DNA from: Gilliamella sp. Pra-s52
GTDB lineage: Bacteria > Pseudomonadota > Gammaproteobacteria > Enterobacterales > Orbaceae
NCBI RefSeq assembly: GCF_009795805.1
Contig: NZ_WTEY01000001.1
Span: 372,001 to 436,000, forward strand
Length of the DNA stretch: 64,000 bases
Direction: 5' to 3'
A program made the position numbers and the translations under genes. Under the pieces are notes generated by a model. The model worked only from the letters and a program-made list of their open reading frames with translations. It had not been told where the DNA came from and searched no databases. Positions 29,209 to 56,414 of this stretch are shown here, piece after piece. Numbering within the stretch: position 1 is the stretch's first letter; every line of letters starts with the position of its first letter.

Positions 29209-29340
29209 AGTGGCCGTTGCTTATCTAAATATCATTTTAATTGAACGGAAATGCTGATTTGTTATTGCTGAATAGAATTTTGGTGTGCTTTTGCTTACTT
29301 AATTGTTAGTAACTCTTTGATTTTAATTAAAAATAAAAAA

Positions 29341-29377
29341 TCAAATAAAATCAATAACTTTTCTGACCGTTTTTTAA
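29341..29377 (+). repeat. Dispersed ~37-bp repeat, copy A
   Basis: Contains AATAAAATCAATAAC, then TTTTCTGACCG and a T-run: the same ordered pattern as copies B to E in this window. It lies between the tRNA operon and the convergent YdgH-like gene. Confidence 0.75.
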
Positions 29378-40858: not shown

Positions 40859-40867
40859 CATTTAAAA

Positions 40868-40907
40868 AACTTCAATAAAATCAATAACCTTCCTGAACGA
40901 TTTTTTA
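40868..40907 (+). repeat. Dispersed ~37-bp repeat, copy B
   Basis: AACTTCAATAAAATCAATAA, then CCTTCCTGAACG and a T-run, matching copies A, C, D and E. It lies 10 bp after the era terminator, in the era sense. Confidence 0.8.
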
Positions 40908-46153: not shown

Positions 46154-47452
46154 ATGAAAGTTTTAGTCATTGGTAATGGTGGGCGCGAACATGCGCTTGC
46201 TTGGAAAATTGCACAATCACCACGAGTATCTAAAGTCTTTGTTGCACCAGGTAATGCAGGTACTTCACTAGAGCCTAGCTTAGAAAATATCAACATCAAA
46301 GCGACCGACGTCGGTGGACTGCTTAGTTTTGCTCAGCAAGAACAAATTGATTTAACGATAGTTGGCCCCGAAGCCCCGTTAGTGATTGGCATTGTTGATA
46401 GCTTTCAAAAAGCAGGATTAAAAATCTTTGGCCCAACCAAAGCAGCTGCACAACTTGAAGGATCAAAAGCCTTTACTAAAGACTTCTTAGCTCGCCACAA
46501 TATCCCCACAGCCGAATATCAAAACTTTACCGAAGTTGCTCCAGCTATTAACTATATCCGTGAAAAAGGCGTCCCAATTGTCATTAAAGCCGACGGCCTA
46601 GCGGCTGGTAAAGGAGTGATTGTTGCCATGACCCTAAAAGAAGCCGAAGATGCCGTACATGACATGTTAGCAGGCAACGCCTTTGGCGATGCAGGGCACC
46701 GCGTTGTGATTGAAGAATTTTTAGACGGTGAAGAAGCCAGCTTTATTGTCATGGTTGATGGCAAACATGTCGAGCCAATGGCAACTAGCCAAGACCATAA
46801 ACGTGTTGGCGACGGCGATACAGGTTTAAACACGGGGGGAATGGGCGCGTATTCGCCAGCTCCTGTTGTAACTGATGCGGTTTTTGCAAAGGTAATGGAT
46901 AAGATCATCTACCCAACCGTTAACGGTATGGCGCAAGAAGGCAATGTCTATGTTGGCTTTTTATATGCTGGCTTAATGATTGACAAAGATGGCAACCCCA
47001 AAGTTATTGAATTCAACTGCCGATTTGGCGATCCTGAAACACAACCAATTATGATGCGAATGCAATCCGATCTGGTCGAACTCTGCCTTGCGGCAGTGGA
47101 TGGCAAATTAGATACCGTCAAATCAAAATGGGATCCAAGACCTGCATTAGGCGTGGTGCTTGCCGCTGGTGGTTACCCAGGCAAATATAATACCAAAGAT
47201 GTCATCCTTGGATTGCCTGCCGAATCAACCGAAGATTGCAAAATCTTTCATGCGGGTACTAGTTTAGAAAAAGGGCGTGTTCACACTAATGGCGGGCGAG
47301 TATTGTGCATAACCGCACTTGGTAACACGGTACTTGAAGCCCAACAACGGGCTTATCAACAAGCCAAAGACATCTATTGGCATGGTTGTTTTTATCGGCA
47401 TGATATAGGTTACCGTGCGATTGAGCGAGAGCAAAACGGCCATAAATCTTAA
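46154..47452 (+). CDS. purD: Phosphoribosylamine-glycine ligase
   Basis: ATP-grasp enzyme forming GAR in purine synthesis. It starts with G-N-G-G-R-E-H-A-L-A-W, has the ATP-grasp segments G-L-A-A-G-K-G-V and F-N-C-R-F-G-D-P-E-T-Q, and is 432 residues, near the 429 of E. coli. The gene is complete, but its last ~310 bp (from about 47135) and the following ~110 bp are repeated twice downstream. The C-terminus E-R-E-Q-N-G-H-K-S is longer than the E-R-E-Q-N-K of the most distal copy, suggesting that this 3' end was brought in by the inserted cassettes. Confidence 0.96.
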   Translation: MKVLVIGNGGREHALAWKIAQSPRVSKVFVAPGNAGTSLEPSLENINIKATDVGGLLSFAQQEQIDLTIVGPEAPLVIGIVDSFQKAGLKIFGPTKAAAQLEGSKAFTKDFLARHNIPTAEYQNFTEVAPAINYIREKGVPIVIKADGLAAGKGVIVAMTLKEAEDAVHDMLAGNAFGDAGHRVVIEEFLDGEEASFIVMVDGKHVEPMATSQDHKRVGDGDTGLNTGGMGAYSPAPVVTDAVFAKVMDKIIYPTVNGMAQEGNVYVGFLYAGLMIDKDGNPKVIEFNCRFGDPETQPIMMRMQSDLVELCLAAVDGKLDTVKSKWDPRPALGVVLAAGGYPGKYNTKDVILGLPAESTEDCKIFHAGTSLEKGRVHTNGGRVLCITALGNTVLEAQQRAYQQAKDIYWHGCFYRHDIGYRAIEREQNGHKS

Positions 47453-47466
47453 TTTCTAAAGTTAAT

Positions 47467-47488
47467 TATGGCGTTTAATGACGCCATA
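47467..47488 (+). terminator. purD-distal hairpin (repeated at 49598-49619)
   Basis: 8-bp stem TATGGCGT / ACGCCATA with loop TTAATG, 14 bp after the purD stop. No T-run follows. An identical hairpin sits after the second purD tail; the third tail has a different one. Confidence 0.5.
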
Positions 47489-47565
47489 GTAGGTATGAAC
47501 GAACAATTAACGCAATGCTCATCAATTCTTATTAAATTTTTAAATAAAAGAATGGGAGAAGGGAA

Positions 47566-48831
47566 GTGAACAAATTATTAGCAGTGTTGGGCGATGATAC
47601 GACAACTGGTGGTAAAGTAATTTCCGCATCAAATGGAGGGTTTTCTCAAGGTCAAGGCATTGCATGCTTAGGCGATTACGCAAGTTGTCCTAAATGTACA
47701 AAAGGGTATGGTTCCATTATTGAAGGAACATATGATTGTATTGTAGATGTCCAATAGGCGATAATCGAATTATCGCCACTAAAAGCTTTGCTTATGTTAA
47801 TGTTGCAATCCATTCATCAGCGAAAAGCTCAAGTTTTAAAATACCTAGCCCTTCAGAAACCTCATTACCTATCTTTCAAAACCTGATGTATACGCAAAGT
47901 GACTCACCACTTGAAATGAGTGATGATACTTCAAAAATTCGATTGGATGCCAAGCGCTTAATGGATTGCACCCACGAACTATGCGAAAAACACCTTTATT
48001 ATAACGAAATAAAACAATCTTTTATTGATGATGTTGATACATATGCCATGAATATTGTCAATAAAGTTGAAAGTGGAGAAATGAGTTATGAGGAAGGCGC
48101 AAAGAAAATAAAGACTGAAGAAAATAATTTATTAGAGCAAAGTTTTATATGGTTGAAAAATGGTTTGTCTATTTTTGGTGGTGTAGGAATGATTCAAACT
48201 AGGAGTAGCACTTTGTTCTGTGTGGTCATGTCTTATTGGTGCCCCTATGATAGCGCATGGAGTAAATGGAATATATGAAGGAGGAGCTGGCATTGTTAAT
48301 GGTGTTATGAACGAGATTGATGGCGGCAACAGAAGTATGGAAGTTGATGGGCCTTTAAGAGGTTGGTATAAAGATGCTACCGAGTCTTTAGGTTTTGATT
48401 CTTCAATAGGTGATATTGCTTATGATAGTTTAGATTTAAGTATGTCAGTAGGGGCTAAGTTGAAATTAGTGCCGAAACTGAATAAGTTTGGTGATCCGAG
48501 ATTTAAATTATTTAAATATGGTCGCAGTAATTTAGAAAATGCTTACAAACAAATGAGTAAGAAATTATTAACTTTTGAAATAGGTAGTGATCTATTATCT
48601 TTTTATCAGCTGCGTGAAAAATTAAAAAAAGCTTTTGTACTTAATAAAGATACCAACCAAGTGAGCATGGTTGTTAAAGAGCCAGAAACAATTATTAATA
48701 CAGGACAAATTGTTGAGAATTGTTCATTGATAATCACAATAGGTAATGATGATGCACCAGATTATTATAGCTGTGAAAGTAGTGATGGTTCAACATATAG
48801 AAAAGATAGAGACGGTAATATTATAAAATAA
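47566..48831 (+). pseudogene. PAAR-domain toxin, copy 1, frameshifted
   Basis: Disrupted copy of the gene at 49696. At 47749/47750 a 43-bp segment present in copy 2 is missing; it is bounded in copy 2 by GATG direct repeats, which points to slippage. The shift causes a stop at 47755-47757 within the PAAR domain. About 450 bp later (near 48201) a +1 insertion restores the frame, and a 3-bp in-frame loss follows near 48225. The C-terminal ~200 codons are therefore intact but separated from the PAAR part. GTG start at 47566. Downstream immunity gene copy 1 is intact. Confidence 0.9.
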
Positions 48832-48841
48832 GGAGATTTGC

Positions 48842-49153
48842 ATGGCTATTAAAATGTGGGTTAGCTATTATTTTTTTGCTATTGTTGGGTGTTTTATTCG
48901 GCGCTATTTCTCGGGATATATTGCAATGGACTATGAAAATGATAAGACTTTAAATTGTAAACGACGTTTAGCTCTTTTTTATTTTTATTTTATTTTTTTA
49001 TATAGCCTGTTTATGATAAGTCAGCCAGGAGAAGGGCTTTTTTTAGAACTTGTTTTTTTCTGGTCAGCTGTTTTTATTTTTATATTGTATGTATTTTTTA
49101 TTAGCTTTCTTGAAACACCACGTAGATACATAAAAAGGAAAAAATGGAAATGA
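48842..49153 (+). CDS. Small membrane protein, probable immunity protein, copy 1
   Basis: 103 residues with three hydrophobic segments (about 6-22, 43-59, 68-90) and a basic C-terminus (R-R-Y-I-K-R-K-K-W-K). It starts 10 bp after the toxin copy-1 stop, with AAGGAG upstream. It differs from copy 2 mainly at residues 3-5, 25, 32, 39, 52-58 and 66-71, while the last third is identical. A small multi-pass membrane protein directly after a toxin with a hydrophobic core is the usual layout for immunity to membrane-active toxins. No family was recognised. Confidence 0.7.
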   Translation: MAIKMWVSYYFFAIVGCFIRRYFSGYIAMDYENDKTLNCKRRLALFYFYFIFLYSLFMISQPGEGLFLELVFFWSAVFIFILYVFFISFLETPRRYIKRKKWK

Positions 49154-49265
49154 TTAATTGAAGTTAAATAGAAGCTGTTGATATTTTGTATTAATCATAT
49201 GTCTATTTATATTTTTAGCCATATTATGCAACATGCTAATGTGGCTATACCGACATAATTTCTAG

Positions 49266-49583
49266 CCAAGACCTGCATTAGGTGTGGTGCTTGTCGCTGG
49301 CGGTTACCCAGGCAAATATAATACCAAAGATGTCATCCTTGGATTGTCTGCCGAATCAACCGAAGATTGCAAAATCTTTCATGCGGGTACTAGTTTAGAA
49401 AAAGGGCGTGTTCACACTAATGGCGGGCGAGTATTGTGCATAACCGCACTTGGTAACACGGTACTTGAAGCCCAACAACGGGCTTATCAGCAAGCCAAAG
49501 ACATCTATTGGCATGGTTGTTTTTATCGGCATGATATAGGTTACCGTGCGATTGAGCGAGAGCAAAACGGCCATAAATCTTAA
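49266..49583 (+). pseudogene. purD 3'-end fragment, tail 1
   Basis: Reproduces the last ~106 codons of purD, including the stop, with a few substitutions (for example V for A in the V-L-A-A-G-G segment). The frame is open but there is no ribosome binding site or start. It abuts the spacer sequence CTAG before CCAAGACC. Probably a recombination relic or homology arm rather than a gene. Confidence 0.88.
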
Positions 49584-49695
49584 TTTCTAAAGTTAATTAT
49601 GGCGTTTAATGACGCCATAATAGGTATGAACGAACAATTAACTCAATGCTCATCAATTCTTATTAAATTTTTAAATAAAAGAATGGGAGAAGGGA

Positions 49696-51006
49696 GTGAA
49701 CAAATTATTAGCAGTGTTGGGCGATGATACGACAACTGGTGGTAAAGTAATTTCCGCATCAAATGGAGGGTTTTCTCAAGGTCAAGGCATTGCATGCTTA
49801 GGCGATTACGCAAGTTGTCCTAAATGTACAAAAGGGTACGGTTCCATTATTGAAGGAACATATGATTGTATTGTAGATGGTAAACCGGCTGCCTATGATG
49901 GTTGCATTGTAGCTTGTGGATGTCCAATAGGTGAGAATCGAATTATCGCCACTAAAAGCTTTATTTATGTTAATGTTGCAATCCATTCATCAGCGAAAAG
50001 CTCAAGTTTTAAAATGCCTAGCTCTTCAAAAACCTCATTACCTATTTTTCAAAACCTGATGTATACGCAAAGTGACTCACCACTTGAAATAAGTGATGAT
50101 ACTTCAAAAATTCGATTGGATGCCAAGCGCTTAATGGATTGCACCCACGAACTATGCGAAAAACACCTTTATTATAACGAAATAAAACAATCTTTTATTG
50201 ATGATGTTGATACATATGCCATGAATATTGTCAATAAAGTTGAAAGTGGAGAAATGAGTTATGAGGAAGGCGCAAAGAAAATAAAGACTGAAGAAAATAA
50301 TTTATGGAAACAAAGTTTTATATGGTCGAAAAATGGTTTGTCTATTTTTGGTGGTGTAGGAATGATTCAAACTGGGGTAGCACTTTGTTCTGTGGGATTG
50401 TCATGTCTTATTGGTGCCCCTATGATAGCGCATGGAGGAAATGGAATATATGAAGGAGGAGCTGGCATTGTTAATGGTGTTATGAACGAGATTGATGGCG
50501 GCAACAGAAGTATGGAAGTTGATGGGCCTTTAAGAGGTTGGTATAAAGATGCTACCGAGTCTTTAGGTTTTGATTCTTCAATAGGTGATATTGCTTATGA
50601 TAGTTTAGATTTAAGTATGTCAGTAGGGGCTAAGTTGAAATTAGTGCCGAAACTGAATAAGTTTGGTAATCCAATATTTAAATTATTTAAATATGGTCGC
50701 CGTGATTTAGAAAACGCTTACAAACAAATGAGTAAGAAATTATTAACTGTGGAAATTCTTGGTGATGCTATTTCTCTTAGAGAACTAGCTAATCAGTTAA
50801 AAAAAGCTTTTATACTTAATAAAGATACCAACCAAGTGAGCATGGTTGTTAAAGAGCCAGAAACAATTATTAATACAGGACAAATTGTTGAGAATTGTTC
50901 ATTGATAATCACAATAGGTAATGATGATGCACCAGATTATTATAGCTGTGAAAGTAGTGATGGTTCAACATATAGAAAAGATAGAGACGGTAATATTATA
51001 AAATAA
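49696..51006 (+). CDS. PAAR-domain specialised effector (T6SS toxin candidate), intact
   Basis: 436 residues, GTG start with GGAG upstream. Residues 1-~90 form a PAAR domain (G-D-D-T-T-T-G-G-K-V, G-D-Y-A-S-C-P-K-C, D-G-K-P-A-A-Y-D-G, C-G-C-P-I-G), which caps the VgrG spike of type VI secretion systems. A helical middle (~125-220) leads to a Gly-rich hydrophobic hairpin (about 222-265: F-G-G-V-G-M-I-Q-T-G-V-A ... A-G-I-V-N-G) resembling DUF4225-type toxin regions, then a variable C-terminal part. Membrane activity is plausible but inferred. Residues ~335-385 differ from copy 1 while flanks are identical. No other T6SS gene is in the window. Confidence 0.8.
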   Translation: MNKLLAVLGDDTTTGGKVISASNGGFSQGQGIACLGDYASCPKCTKGYGSIIEGTYDCIVDGKPAAYDGCIVACGCPIGENRIIATKSFIYVNVAIHSSAKSSSFKMPSSSKTSLPIFQNLMYTQSDSPLEISDDTSKIRLDAKRLMDCTHELCEKHLYYNEIKQSFIDDVDTYAMNIVNKVESGEMSYEEGAKKIKTEENNLWKQSFIWSKNGLSIFGGVGMIQTGVALCSVGLSCLIGAPMIAHGGNGIYEGGAGIVNGVMNEIDGGNRSMEVDGPLRGWYKDATESLGFDSSIGDIAYDSLDLSMSVGAKLKLVPKLNKFGNPIFKLFKYGRRDLENAYKQMSKKLLTVEILGDAISLRELANQLKKAFILNKDTNQVSMVVKEPETIINTGQIVENCSLIITIGNDDAPDYYSCESSDGSTYRKDRDGNIIK

Positions 51007-51016
51007 GGAGATTTGC

Positions 51017-51328
51017 ATGGCTGTTGAAATATGGGTTAGCTATTATTTTTTTGCTATTGTTGGGTGTTTTATTCGGCGCTATTTTTCGGAATATATTGCA
51101 ATGGACTACAATAATGACAAAACTTTAAATCGTAAACGACGTTTAGCTCTTTTTTATTTTTATTTTATTTCTTTATATAGCCTGTTAATTATAAGTCAGC
51201 CAGGAGAAGGTTTTTTTTCAAATATTATTTTTTTCTGGTCAGCTGTTTTTATTTTTATATTGTATGTATTTTTTATTAGCTTTCTTGAAACACCACGTAG
51301 ATACATAAAAAGGAAAAAATGGAAATGA
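51017..51328 (+). CDS. Small membrane protein, probable immunity protein, copy 2
   Basis: 103 residues with the same three-helix plan as copy 1 and about 17 substitutions, clustered around the first helix start, the loop after it and the loop between helices two and three. AAGGAG precedes the ATG, 10 bp after the intact toxin stop, so it should be co-translated with that toxin. Immunity function is inferred from position, size and topology. Confidence 0.72.
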   Translation: MAVEIWVSYYFFAIVGCFIRRYFSEYIAMDYNNDKTLNRKRRLALFYFYFISLYSLLIISQPGEGFFSNIIFFWSAVFIFILYVFFISFLETPRRYIKRKKWK

Positions 51329-51440
51329 TTAATTGAAGTTAAATAGAAGCTGTTGATATTTTGTATTAATCATATGTCTATTTATATTTTTAGCCATATT
51401 ATGCAACATGCTAATGTGGCTATACCGACATAATTTCTAG

Positions 51441-51749
51441 CCAAGACCTGCATTAGGTGTGGTGCTTGCCGCTGGTGGTTACCCAGGCAAATATAATACC
51501 AAAGATGTCATCCTTGGATTTCCTGCCGAATCAACCGAAGATTGCAAAATCTTCCATGCGGGTACTAGTTTAGAAAAAGGGCGTGTTCACACTAATGGCG
51601 GGCGAGTATTGTGCATAACCGCACTTGGTAACATGGTACTTGAAGCCCAACAACGGGCTTATCAGCAAGCCAAAGACATCTATTGGCATGGTTGTTTTTA
51701 TCAGCATGATATTGGTTACCGTGCGATTGAGCGGGAACAAAACAAATAG
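51441..51749 (+). pseudogene. purD 3'-end fragment, tail 2 (possibly the ancestral end)
   Basis: Second copy of the purD tail. Unlike the others it ends E-R-E-Q-N-K-stop and is followed by different sequence: a 13-bp hairpin and dispersed repeat copy C. This looks like the original purD 3' end displaced by insertion of cassettes that carried their own tail. It has no start of its own. Confidence 0.85.
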
Positions 51750-51754
51750 TGATG

Positions 51755-51785
51755 ATTGGGTGTTTTTTTAAGAAAAACACCCAAT
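51755..51785. terminator. Hairpin after the distal purD tail
   Basis: 13-bp stem ATTGGGTGTTTTT / AAAAACACCCAAT with a 5-base loop, 5 bp after the stop. An A-rich stretch follows rather than T, so terminator function is uncertain. Confidence 0.6.
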
Positions 51786-51787
51786 AA

Positions 51788-51828
51788 AAACTTTAATAAA
51801 ATCAATACCTTTCCTCACTGTTTTTTTA
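51788..51828 (+). repeat. Dispersed ~37-bp repeat, copy C (left TIR)
   Basis: ACTTTAATAAAATCAATACC, then TTTCCTCACTG and seven T. Inverted partner of copy D (52194-52236); together they bound a 449-bp element. Confidence 0.82.
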
Positions 51829-51878
51829 GCGGAAAATCAGCTTTTTTGTTTTTGTGAATAGAATAAATTGAGTGCAGA

Positions 51879-52112
51879 GGTTTCGGACGTTTTGACTTTT
51901 TGTGAACAAAATAGCTACAGTGACAACGTCCGAGTCAGGGAATTAAAGCGAATTCCCTGACAACCCACGCTTTGGCTGCTACGGCTAACCCTCCGCCGTC
52001 GCTCGGTCTTAACGCACCGTTTGTGCAATTACTCGTATCATCCTGATACTCGCCTCTACGAGGCCACCTTCTCTATGCTCAGGTGTTCAAATTTGTTCCA
52101 GACAAATTTGTC
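51879..52112 (+). repeat. Long inverted repeat flanking CRISPR, left arm
   Basis: From GGTTTCGGACG to CAAATTTGTC. The reverse complement recurs at 52706-52897 with high identity except for a ~40-bp interior stretch present only on this side. Homology appears to extend outward to copies C and E. Confidence 0.9.
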
Positions 52113-52193
52113 CGACGCCGAAACAAGACAACAACATAACCTTAGGTCTTTTTTGTGAGTTGTTTTTGTGTTAAAAAGCAATGCAAAAACCCC

Positions 52194-52236
52194 AAAAAAG
52201 TGGTCAGGAAAGGTACTAATTTTATTAAAGTTTTTT
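52194..52236 (-). repeat. Dispersed ~37-bp repeat, copy D (right TIR)
   Basis: On the minus strand: ACTTTAATAAAATTAGTACC, then TTTCCTGACCAC and a T-run. Inverted relative to copy C. Confidence 0.82.
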
Positions 52237-52288
52237 CTATCCGTTTTTTTGAATATAAACCTCTCCAAACCCTTTTTTTTACGATAAT

Positions 52289-52311
52289 TTAAAGTTCAAT
52301 AAAATCAATAC
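52289..52311 (+). repeat. Partial dispersed repeat, copy F
   Basis: AAAGTTCAATAAAATCAATAC matches the first ~20 bases of the repeat, then diverges. It lies ~90 bp before the CRISPR array. Confidence 0.5.
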
Positions 52312-52398
52312 ATTAGAAAATAGCTTAAAAAAAGGGTTTTCAAAGTCAAAATTGTTGTTTATCTTTATATAACAAGATTTATCAAATCTTGAGTTCTA

Positions 52399-52598
52399 CC
52401 TTAACGCCGTATAGGCGGTTTAGAAAGATATGCCGAATTGGTTTCTATCTGTCAGTTTCCTTAACGCCGTATAGGCGGTTTAGAAAGTTTGGTTGACTGG
52501 TTAGCTGATTATTACGATCCTTAACGCCGTATAGGCGGTTTAGAAAAAAAGGCGCTAGAGTAACTATAAAATACAACTCCTTAACGCCGTATAGGCGG
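52399..52598 (+). CRISPR. Type I-F-like CRISPR array, 4 repeats, 3 spacers, no cas genes
   Basis: Repeats start at 52399, 52459, 52519 and 52579, with an exact 60-bp period: 28-bp repeats and 32-bp spacers. The repeat carries CGCC-GTATA-GGCG as hairpin and ends TTTAGAAA, like the I-F 5' handle, so transcription should run left to right from the AT-rich leader. The first three repeats are identical; the fourth keeps only the first 20 bases, marking the distal end. 28/32 geometry and repeat sequence fit subtype I-F. No cas genes are in the window, so processing would depend on cas genes elsewhere. Confidence 0.95.
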
Positions 52599-52705
52599 CA
52601 ATAAAAAATAAAGTTAATCACATAATTAAAAAGCAATCGGCTATGTTATCTGTTTTATTCCGGCGTCAGAATGTGGCAACAACAGAGCGAGTTTGTGGCG
52701 CGCTT

Positions 52706-52897
52706 GACAAATTTGTCTGGAACAAATTTGAACATCTGAGCATAGCGAAGAAAGCGAATATCAGGATGATACGAGTATTGCCGAAGGCCACATTCTGCAG
52801 CCAAAGCGTGGGTTGTCAGGGAATTTGCTTTAATTCCCTGACTCGGACGTGGGCACTGTAGCCATTTTGTTCACCAAAGGTCAAAACGTCAGAAACC
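52706..52897 (-). repeat. Long inverted repeat flanking CRISPR, right arm
   Basis: Reverse complement of the left arm at 51879-52112, starting GACAAATTTG and ending in CAGAAACC. It lacks ~40 bp of the left interior. Copy E of the short repeat lies 50 bp further out, matching the position of copy C outside the left arm. Confidence 0.9.
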
Positions 52898-52945
52898 ACC
52901 GTACCAACCCCATTCTATGCACCAACAAAAAAACATCATTTTGAT

Positions 52946-52989
52946 GAAAAAATTGGTCAGGAAAGGTGTTGATTTTATTGATGTTTTTT
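52946..52989 (-). repeat. Dispersed ~37-bp repeat, copy E
   Basis: On the minus strand: CATCAATAAAATCAACACC, then TTTCCTGACCAA and a T-run. It lies ~30 bp after the ilvA stop in the ilvA sense. Confidence 0.8.
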
Positions 52990-53017
52990 CTTGTTGTTTT
53001 TTAACAAAAAAACAACA

Positions 53018-54562
53018 TTACGCCCCCTGATTTGTCAAAAACAACCCAAGTGATGGATTTTGCGTTTCGTTATGAAAACCATACCCCAAAGCTTTCAAAT
53101 GCTGATTAAATTCACTACTATCACTTTCGCCAATTTCAAACGCAGCAAGTACTCTACCATAATCAGTCCCATGGCTACGGTAATGGAACATCGAAATATT
53201 CCAATTTGTCCCTAATGTTTGCAAGAATTTAAGCAAAGCGCCTTGTGATTCAGGAAATTCAAAACTATACACTTGTTCTTGAAGCGATTTGCACGGTTTG
53301 CCGCCAATCATGTAACGAACATGCAGTTTTGCCATTTCATCTTCGGTCAGATCCACAACAGGGTAGCCTGCGGCGGTAAGTTCTTGCATGATGTCGTCTT
53401 TTTCGTTGCTTTGCGCAATTTTGATGCCGACAAAAATATAGGCGGACTTGTCGTCGTGGTAGCGGTAGTTAAATTCGGTCACTGAGCGTCTGCCAAGGAG
53501 TTGGCAGAATTTTAAAAAACTGCCTTTCTTTTCGGGAATGGTGACTGCAAAGAGTGCTTCACGCTTTTCGCCAAGTTCGCAACGTTCTGATACATAACGT
53601 AAGTTGTGGAAATTTAAATTTGCCCCCGATAATATGTGGGCAAGATTTTCGCCGCTGATGTTGTGGTGCTCTACGTATTTTTTTAGCCCTGCTAAGGCAA
53701 CTGCGCCAGAGGGTTCAGCTATGGCACGTACATCGTCAAATAGGTCTTTTACTGCTGCGCAAATTTCGTCGCTACTGACGGTGATAATATCGTCGATATA
53801 TTGTTGGCAAAGCCTGAATGTTTCGTCTCCAATTCGTTTAACGGCGACACCTTCGGCAAAAAGTCCAACACGATCTAAATCAACAGGGTGGCCGGCATCT
53901 AACGCCGCTTTTAAGCAAGCGGAATCTTTAGGTTCGACCGCAATAACTTTGATTGATGGCATGATTTGTTTGATTAATACCGCAACGCCAGCAGCAAGCC
54001 CTCCACCACCGACGGGTACAAAGATGCGGTCGAGTTTGGCATTTTGTTGTAATAATTCCATCGCAATACTGCCTTGTCCTGCAATGACAAGTGGGTGGTC
54101 AAAGGGTGGAATAAAAATGCGTTTTTGTTCTTTGGCAAGCGCCATGGCTTTGGCTTTGGCTTCGTCAAAATTGGCTCCGTACAAAAGTACTTCACCGCCG
54201 AAGCTTTTTACTGCTTCGACTTTGATGTCGGCGGTTGTTAGCGGCATAACAATTAAAGAACTGATGCCTAATTTAGTCGCCGAAAAAGCAACGCCCTGCG
54301 CATGGTTGCCTGCTGATGCGGCAATAACACCGCATTTGCGTTCATCTTCACTTAGGCTTGCTATCATGGTTTGTGCGCCACGGATTTTGAAACTGTGGAC
54401 GAGTTGGCGGTCTTCGCGCTTGACAAAAATTTGATTATTTAATCTTGTTGAGATTTTTTCCATCTTTTCAAGTGGAGTGACTTCGGCCACGTCATAAACG
54501 GCACTGCAAAGTGTTGCTTTTAAGTAGTCGGCGCCTGTGAATTGTGTGTTTTGTTGTTTCAC
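53018..54562 (-). CDS. ilvA: Threonine deaminase (biosynthetic)
   Basis: PLP enzyme converting threonine to 2-oxobutanoate, first step to isoleucine. PLP-binding Lys59 lies in H-S-F-K-I-R-G-A; the phosphate loop is V-G-G-G-G-L-A. Two C-terminal ACT-like regulatory domains (about 330-510) mediate isoleucine inhibition. I chose the GTG at 54562: GGAGG lies six bases upstream, inside the last codons of ilvD, and the product is 514 residues, as in E. coli. The longer frame from 54589 overlaps ilvD without homology. Last gene of ilvLGMEDA. Confidence 0.95.
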   Translation of the reverse strand: MKQQNTQFTGADYLKATLCSAVYDVAEVTPLEKMEKISTRLNNQIFVKREDRQLVHSFKIRGAQTMIASLSEDERKCGVIAASAGNHAQGVAFSATKLGISSLIVMPLTTADIKVEAVKSFGGEVLLYGANFDEAKAKAMALAKEQKRIFIPPFDHPLVIAGQGSIAMELLQQNAKLDRIFVPVGGGGLAAGVAVLIKQIMPSIKVIAVEPKDSACLKAALDAGHPVDLDRVGLFAEGVAVKRIGDETFRLCQQYIDDIITVSSDEICAAVKDLFDDVRAIAEPSGAVALAGLKKYVEHHNISGENLAHILSGANLNFHNLRYVSERCELGEKREALFAVTIPEKKGSFLKFCQLLGRRSVTEFNYRYHDDKSAYIFVGIKIAQSNEKDDIMQELTAAGYPVVDLTEDEMAKLHVRYMIGGKPCKSLQEQVYSFEFPESQGALLKFLQTLGTNWNISMFHYRSHGTDYGRVLAAFEIGESDSSEFNQHLKALGYGFHNETQNPSLGLFLTNQGA

Positions 54563-54563
54563 A

Positions 54564-56414
54564 TTAACCTCCAAGTTTGCTTTTATCACGAACTGCCCCT
54601 TTGTCTGCGCTGGTTGCTAAGCTAGCGTAAGCTTTAAGTGCATAAGAGACTTGGCGGTTGCGGTGGTGAGGCGTAAAGGCTTTGTCACCACGGGCAAGTT
54701 CGGCGACTCGGCGGCGTTCAAGTTCATCATTAGGGACATCTAGTACGAGTTTTCGATTTGGAATATCAATATCGATTATATCACCATCACGAACTAGCCC
54801 TATAACTCCACCACTTGCTGCTTCTGGTGAGATGTGTCCGATTGATAAGCCCGATGATCCTCCTGAAAATCGTCCATCAGTAATAAGGGCACAAGCTTTG
54901 CCAAGTCCCATTGATTTTAGATAGCTGGTTGGGTAGAGCATTTCTTGCATGCCCGGTCCACCTTTTGGTCCTTCGTAAATAATGACAACTACATCGCCTG
55001 CTATTATTTTTCCACCTAAAATGGCATCGACAGCATCTTCTTGGCTTTCAAATACTTTGGCAGGGCCTCGGAAAATGAGATTTTCAGCAGCAACGCCTGC
55101 AGTTTTAACAATTGCTCCATCCAGTGCTACGTTACCATAGAGTGTGGCAAGTCCACCATCTTGACTATAGGCATGGGCTATATCACGAATACACCCCTCT
55201 TGACGGTCATCGTCAAGTGTGTCCCAATAGCAGTCTTGTGAAAATGCTTTGGTAGTGCGAATGCCGGCTGGGCCACTACGGTACATTTTTTTGACGGTTT
55301 CGTCGTTAGTTTGTTTGATGTCGTATTTAGTAAAGGTTTCTTGTAATGATAAACCGAGTACGTTGTGAACATTACGATTGAGTAGGCCTGCTTTGTCTAA
55401 TTCAGACATGATTGATACCACGCCACCAGCACGGTGTACATCTTCCATATGATATTTTGCAGTACTTGGCGCCACTTTGCATAGGTGTGGGACTTTGCGG
55501 GATAATTTGTCGATATCTGACATAGTAAAATCGATTTCACCCTCTTGTGCTGTTGCTAGCAGATGTAAAACGGTATTGGTCGATCCCCCCATGGCAATAT
55601 CGAGTGACATGGCGTTTTCATATGCGGCTTTAGTTGCGATAGCGCGTGGTAGGTAAGATTCATCATCATGTTCGTAATAGCGTTTGGTAATTTCAACAAT
55701 GCGTTTTGCTGCTTGTAAAAAGAGTTGTTCACGCTGTTTGTGTGTGGCAACTAATGAGCCGTTGCCGGGTAGGGATAGGCCTAAGGCCTCAGTTAAGCAG
55801 TTCATGGAGTTAGCGGTAAACATGCCTGAGCAAGAGCCACAAGTTGGACAGGCTGATTCTTCGATTGCTTTGCTGTCTTCGTCGCTGACATTTGGGTTAG
55901 CACTTTGGATCATGGCATCGACCAGATCTAATTTTATAATTTGATCTGACAGTTTGGTTTTGCCCGCTTCCATTGGTCCACCAGAAACAAAAATGGTGGG
56001 AATATTTAAACGAAGTGATGCCATTAACATGCCGGGAGTGATTTTGTCGCAGTTCGAGATGCAGATCATTGCATCGGCACAATGTGCGTTAACCATATAT
56101 TCAACCGAATCGGCAATAAGTTCGCGCGATGGTAATGAATAGAGCATACCACCATGCCCCATGGCGATGCCGTCATCAACGGCGATTGTGTTGAATTCTT
56201 TGGCAATACCACCCGATGCTTCAATTTGTTTTGCAACCAGTTGACCAATGTCTTTTAGATGGACATGCCCTGGTACGAATTGTGTAAATGAGTTAACCAC
56301 CGCAATGATGGGTTTACCAAAGTCTTCATTTTTAACGCCTGTTGCACGCCATAATGCACGGGCACCAGCCATGTTTCGGCCTTCGACCGAGGTTGCTGAA
56401 CGATATTTAGGCAT
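54564..56414 (-). CDS. ilvD: Dihydroxy-acid dehydratase
   Basis: Fe-S dehydratase in valine and isoleucine synthesis. 616 residues, exactly the E. coli length. Cluster ligand motifs are visible: C-D-K-I-T-P-G (about 122) and [18 protein letters not shown] (about 192-209), and D-G-R-F-S-G-G lies near the C-terminus. It ends one base before the ilvA GTG, so the two are translationally coupled. Confidence 0.97.

Follow-up and report, generated by a model that had tools for sequence, protein, structure and literature searches.

A type I-F CRISPR array of Gilliamella, probably a satellite scattered together with MITE-like repeats

The small type I-F CRISPR array analysed here lies in a 64,000-nucleotide window of the draft genome of Gilliamella sp. 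Pra-s52 (contig C13, 372001-436000; 2.49 Mb in 65 contigs), and we read it as a satellite array that is served in trans by a Cas operon elsewhere in the genome and that was scattered, as one of several cassette copies, in association with a MITE-like repeat family, a reading to which we assign a probability of roughly 0.6. Extra CRISPR arrays are usually ascribed to duplication or transfer, with the vehicle left unnamed. Gilliamella offers a case of lineage-specific leader-array multiplication in which the arrays keep a constant position relative to one repeat family and in which array-bearing and array-free versions coexist, so that where satellite arrays come from, and whether they can move, becomes directly testable in bee symbionts.

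The array (52399-52606, + strand) has four 28-nt repeats (CCTTAACGCCGTATAGGCGGTTTAGAAA), starting at 52399, 52459, 52519 and 52579, and three 32-nt spacers (52427-52458, 52487-52518 and 52547-52578, all +), giving a period of 60; the fourth, array-terminal repeat is degenerate and the other three are full. A short stem is predicted for the repeat, although the fold of the repeat alone is not unusual (z -1.5). A leader of the satellite lineage lies to the left (52262-52398, +), and the array is followed by a trailer (52607-52638, +) that resembles sequences 3' of several other arrays. The left flank is a copy of the 3' end of a gene that we take, from its translation, to be purD (51459-51749, +), and the right flank is a threonine dehydratase-like gene, on the same basis presumably of the ilvA type (53018-54589, -). 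Farther left, the window holds purD and then two near-identical modules (46154-51749), in each of which a PAAR-like gene and a gene for a small membrane-like protein are accompanied by a duplicate of the 3' end of purD. The PAAR-like genes match the T6SS PAAR weakly, and the first of them is split into two frames.

The array stands between inverted copies of a repeated element, as the preliminary description of this DNA had held. On the left is a complete MITE-like unit (51786-52235), in which an inner part, A+B+C (51831-52190, +; strong RNA fold, z -4.2), is enclosed by two copies of a 41-bp repeat, here called T, the outer one on the minus strand (51786-51826) and the inner one on the plus strand (52194-52235). 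This inner T is common to the left element and the array cassette and, with the leader delimited as above, lies 26 bp upstream of it. The left element is MITE-like in having terminal inverted repeats and in being present in many copies; at purD it abuts a terminator hairpin, and its ends are too repetitive for a target-site duplication to be read. On the right, an arm in the order C-B-A (52639-52946, -), with the inner part inverted and shortened, is closed by a further T (52947-52988, +) that adjoins ilvA. The region 52639-52988 aligns with the left unit at 205 bits (blastn, 74% over 328 bp), a score that none of 100 block-shuffled queries approached (maximum 35.6 bits), and repeat finding gave inverted-arm segments of 137 nt (85%), 45 nt (96%) and 24 nt (96%). 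A second, inverted and shortened unit on this side is therefore upheld, except for its supposed other end (see below). The short repeat outside the arms is also real, its 25-bp core being found at 99 places in the genome when up to 3 mismatches are allowed, against none for the reversed control, but the two T copies that bound the array have the same orientation. The unit that recurs is thus T - leader - array - trailer - inverted arm - T, with both T direct. Solo T repeats that lack the inner element are also found in the window, at 29335-29375 and 40865-40907. Rfam, at the gathering threshold, gave no match at the array or the arms.

The array had initially been regarded as an orphan without cas genes. 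However, contig C55 of the same genome carries a complete I-F operon (cas1f, cas2-3f, csy1, csy2, csy3 and cas6f), with all profile scores over the cut-off (Cas1f 471 bits, Cas3f 1157, Csy1 299, Csy2 320, Csy3 424, Cas6f 155), followed by an array with a different repeat variant; since the cognate operon is complete, the window array is a satellite and not an orphan. An I-F3 CRISPR-associated transposon, which would have a cascade without Cas1 and Cas3, does not fit the content of this operon, in which both Cas1f and Cas3f are present. Besides the cas-side array, the genome has eight leader-bearing satellites (the window array and L116-L122) with one to eight full repeats each and leader matches that are 88-100% identical. 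T lies 26 bp before the leader in five of the eight, is decayed at two (71% and 76%) and was not detected at one, and the homology among these satellites starts at the leader-side T and ends at the right T where this is present. The satellite repeat (up to 3 mismatches) occurs at 35 places in the genome and in 21 of 99 genomes searched (this one included), all of them Gilliamella, and the leader pattern found 13 stretches in the named genome collection, again all from Gilliamella. Of the 35 genomes of the genus, 21 have Csy3 and 20 have a Cas1f match over the cut-off. One genome (G028) has Csy3 without a Cas1f match, while two others (G026 and G021) have satellite-type repeats without a Csy3 match or a Cas1f score over the cut-off.

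We mapped 22 array loci of the window leader lineage, with both-arm loci in four genomes. The array is bounded by T copies in direct orientation at 15 of these loci, at least part of the right arm is found at 20 and both arms are found at nine, so the expectation that the arms would flank other arrays was borne out; at one locus (L143) an upstream element part has the opposite orientation. In the Pra-s52 genome seven of the 14 inner elements have an array no more than 1 kb away, where about 0.1 would be expected (binomial ~5e-12, the counts being not fully independent), and six of the eight satellites have an inner element within 1 kb, while two do not. One may also consider that arrays and repeats simply collect in the same intergenic terminator regions, and many T copies do, by eye, stand beside terminator-like hairpins. 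Such chance adjacency is very improbable in view of the clustering just described, of the T-leader spacing, constant in five of the arrays, and of the fixed element orientation at 19 of 20 leaders in another species (G001, below), even if tandem copies there are not independent. The T core itself is unevenly distributed, with 118 places in G. bombicola, 3-17 in nine congeners and one in G008; it is absent from 23 of 34 congeners and from all 25 genomes examined that do not belong to the genus. At five loci (L119, L121, L124, L138 and L139) there is a second cassette, in which two direct T copies enclose a similar segment of ~110 bp, in many cases directly ahead of the leader.

In four relatives, G034 (G. 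mensalis), G017 (Pas-s25), G033 (App6-5) and G022 (App4-10), purD is likewise followed by an array of the window leader lineage. The left element is present at the same place in G034 and G017 and absent from G033 and G022, where T and the leader come directly after the purD terminator; since these two have the array without the left arm, the left arm is a separate element. The right flank is ilvA in the window, whereas in all four relatives it is another gene, one that in Pra-s52 adjoins a different satellite (L117). At ilvA, the right arm and T stand without a leader or array in G023 (G. bombicola), while the stretch covered at ilvA in G028, G020 and G009 (G. intestini) shows neither T nor leader nor repeat. 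The different right flanks, together with the arrangement in G023, suggest that in the window a left end from the purD side has become joined to a right end from the ilvA side, probably through recombination between arms or arrays. The notion that the whole 51.8-53.0-kb block is a single unit is not supported on either side, with arrays lacking the left arm in G033 and G022 and a right arm lacking the array in G023. An array at this locus without arms, which was to count against the nested arrangement, was found for the left arm only (at purD, in G033 and G022). Short arrays also lie ~1.8 kb (G022, with a leader of another lineage) and ~1.4 kb (G034; L178, with two repeats) from the ilvA flank.

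The preliminary description had also looked to relatives for empty sites. We sought the flanks of the eight satellite sites in seven relatives and judged the absence of arrays with a leader probe, a permissive repeat pattern and a test for periodicity. Five of the eight sites are array-free in at least one relative that retains both flanks (L116 in G034 and G022; L119 in G022; L120 in G023; L121 in G028, G009 and G020; L122 in G022 and G034), the flanks lying collinear on a single contig with neither leader nor repeat in the interval; the permissive pattern and the periodicity test detected no array in stretches L164-L172. T or T-like sequence is left at the array-free L116, L119, L120 and L122 sites, and the L121 gap holds about 2.0-2.9 kb of other sequence. 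The flanks of the window array, L117 and L118 are unlinked in the seven relatives, and in G034 the left flank of L120 adjoins an array of a different leader lineage. The array-free sites may reflect either gain or loss of the array.

In G001, which belongs to another species and has no T, an element related in part to that of the window (57 bp at 88-93% and 103-121 bp at 71-74%) lies 23-45 bp before 19 of the 20 leaders, in one orientation. Since G001 has 20 leaders without T, T is not needed, and we rejected it as a required vehicle. Many of these leaders belong to tandem element-leader-array units of ~0.9-1.5 kb (L149-L153, L227, L228, L230), and array-free tandem copies of the element are seen in G001 (L224, L225, L226, L229; ~455 bp period) and in G030 (L232, L233; often ~390 bp). 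When 11 intervals of G001 with an array and 11 without one are compared by eye (a further, long interval was set aside), they differ by the leader-array at one point, and either side of this point carries a short, similar sequence that resembles the 3' half of the CRISPR repeat. The 128 spacers of G001 include 15 near-identical pairs (up to 8 mismatches) across arrays, of which eight connect loci that are not linked; in G. bombicola a single identical pair is seen, with one of its spacers at a contig end, and in Pra-s52 there is no pair among the 33 satellite spacers, all 39 spacers, cas-side ones included, being distinct. With no spacers in common among the Pra-s52 arrays, copying of arrays with their contents is shown only in G001. 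The array-free sites in relatives, taken with the leader-element linkage and common spacers of G001, nevertheless point to a spread of arrays within genomes that is coupled to the repeat family.

The G001 leaders also bear on the supposed other end of the right unit, a partial repeat, "F" (52286-52314), which we rejected as an element end. It sits within the leader, on an IHF-like site (AATCAATACATTA, 52303-52315, +) 96 nt 5' of the first repeat, the assignment of which relies on what we take to be the IHF consensus, WATCAANNNNTTR; the sequence common to T and F, AATAAAATCAATA, overlaps this site in the leader. The exact motif is present in 43 of 63 leaders of the genus, in 42 of these 94-98 nt 5' of the first repeat, as opposed to 62 of 3150 mononucleotide shuffles, and is missing from the other 20, among them the leader of the cas-side array and those behind purD in G033 and G022. 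Since 13 of the 14 G001 leaders in this set have the exact motif although that genome has no T, F is best read as a part of the leader.

In a tree of the 63 leaders (138 columns, with bootstrap values that had not settled), six of the eight Pra-s52 satellites form one clade (97/97) and 14 G001 leaders another (100/99), eight G. bombicola leaders and one from G. intestini group weakly (89/58), and the leaders of G017 and G034 do not cluster by genome, three pairs uniting one of each. Gene conversion may mimic recent spread, because the purD array is also found in four relatives, yet the window leader groups with its paralogues in the same genome.

On the reading that we prefer, the operon on C55 would serve the window leader and its three spacers in trans: its transcripts would be cleaved by Cas6f and loaded, and the array would gain spacers through Cas1 together with Cas2-3. 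Scatter would have occurred by copying of the T - leader - array - trailer - inverted arm - T cassette in connection with the MITE-like family, the left arm of the window being a second element, separately placed, and the right end of the cassette presumably joining a T/arm of the type found array-free at ilvA in G. bombicola. The repeated elements probably helped the copies to spread, which could have happened through a transposase that works in trans or through recombination among the numerous repeats. A stronger version, in which a multicopy non-autonomous element carries the leader-array units as cargo and these multiply as cassettes within genomes, we put forward tentatively, with more doubt than belief; if true, phage memory would be spread over many loci that are filled and read by one Cas operon.

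The layout of the window recalls a composite mobile unit, in which two inverted elements would act as transposon ends, with the array as cargo and the transposase supplied in trans. The nine both-arm loci in four genomes, all with the C end of the arms next to the array, fit such a unit, as do the array-free sites and the inter-satellite homology that stops at T. Nevertheless, we consider it unlikely: the left arm is missing not only at purD in G033 and G022 but also at seven of the eight Pra-s52 arrays, the upstream element part at L143 is oppositely oriented, the T copies on either side of the array are direct rather than inverted, and there is neither a readable target-site duplication nor a known transposase. 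The inverted copies do not come and go with the cargo, either at purD (G033, G022) or at ilvA (G023), which speaks against a composite transposon. A weightier alternative, which we still hold to be somewhat improbable, dispenses with mobility, so that segmental duplication and reshuffling by recombination between abundant repeats would account for the arrays and the nested look would be a by-product. Synteny does break at arrays, with purD-array-ilvA here and purD-array-another gene in four relatives; G001 has its tandem units, Pra-s52 has 99 T cores, and at one orthologous site (L129 on C11 here, L147 on C31 of G028) the element is oriented oppositely in the two genomes. Yet the arrays occupy different sites, and in relatives the two flanks of such sites are contiguous with no array between them, which requires more than tandem duplication.

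Two of the three spacers of the window array match prophage genes. Spacer 1 matches the portal gene and spacer 2 the large terminase gene (PHROGs) of Gilliamella prophages, whereas spacer 3 had no match in 35 genus genomes or in IMG/VR; one prophage stretch (L209) is matched by window spacers and also by one cas-side spacer. The spacers of Pra-s52 were searched in the 35 genomes and then checked, at up to 6 mismatches, in 15 stretches chosen from those matches, where 14 of the 39 gave 25 protospacer rows, some of which represent one protospacer in several genomes. The motif of type I-F protospacers is 5'-CC, and the 25 rows have CC in 16 cases, CA in four, TC in two, CT in two and TT in one; at least one CC row was obtained for nine of the 12 satellite spacers with rows and for one of the two cas-side spacers. 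In IMG/VR, where the patterns admitted only variants styled on matches already found, spacer 1 hit seven stretches (CC in three, CA in four), one of them exactly (32/32, with 5'-CC), and spacer 2 hit nine, all with TC and 3-5 mismatches that include positions 2 and 4; TC is the sole motif seen for spacer 2 in any of its matches. None of the 39 spacers matched the phage collection, which also had no match to window positions 51770-53020, and IMG/VR had no exact match to the leader or T pattern. A plasmid collection yielded three records only, matching the inner-element part or the repeat region, among them Proteus mirabilis (inner-element part, 82% over 7% of the query, in a stretch with no annotation listed) and Acetobacter (repeat region). 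Spacers have been used for phage-host links in bee-gut bacteria, Gilliamella included, in one study (PMC12586679).

Comparison with known systems shows likeness in parts. MITEs, and the composite cassettes that they may flank, share with the present case a short multicopy element, inverted 41-bp ends here, and at some loci inverted copies around cargo; in contrast, the T copies that bound the array are direct, and the likeness lies in the repeats. Tn7-like I-F3 CRISPR-associated transposons also have I-F repeats near possibly mobile DNA, whereas the Gilliamella operon includes Cas1f and Cas3f and its spacers match phage genes, and it is by these traits that the two are set apart. The dispersed repeat clusters of Methanocaldococcus jannaschii likewise amount to many leader-array units in one genome, although the CRISPR type differs and we know of no coupling of those clusters to a MITE-like element. 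Multiple or Cas-distant I-F arrays occur in Yersinia and Pectobacterium. A literature search of partial coverage found no account of CRISPR arrays coupled to a repeat element. Multiple arrays are common for type I-F, and duplication, transfer and splitting are the sources named in PMC12814883; the systems described there resemble ours in having arrays with similar leaders and repeats distant from one Cas operon, whereas here eight satellites, and twenty leaders in G001, stand in repeat-element units. That paper also cites orphan I-F arrays of E. coli, which like the window array lie away from cas genes but in a genome without I-F cas genes, while the Gilliamella operon is complete.

A multicopy family of exported proteins of ~500-560 aa accompanies some of these loci. 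It had no Pfam match over the cut-off, no NCBIfam family (two copies) and no PDB match (one copy). Its genes lie upstream of the leader at five of eight mapped G. bombicola array loci and at one in Pra-s52; copies are found on the upstream side of the array at L118 (4405-5997), L131, L132, L134, L135 and L137, on the downstream side at L130 and L146, and also in stretches with no array mapped (L127, L142, L172, L179 and L182).
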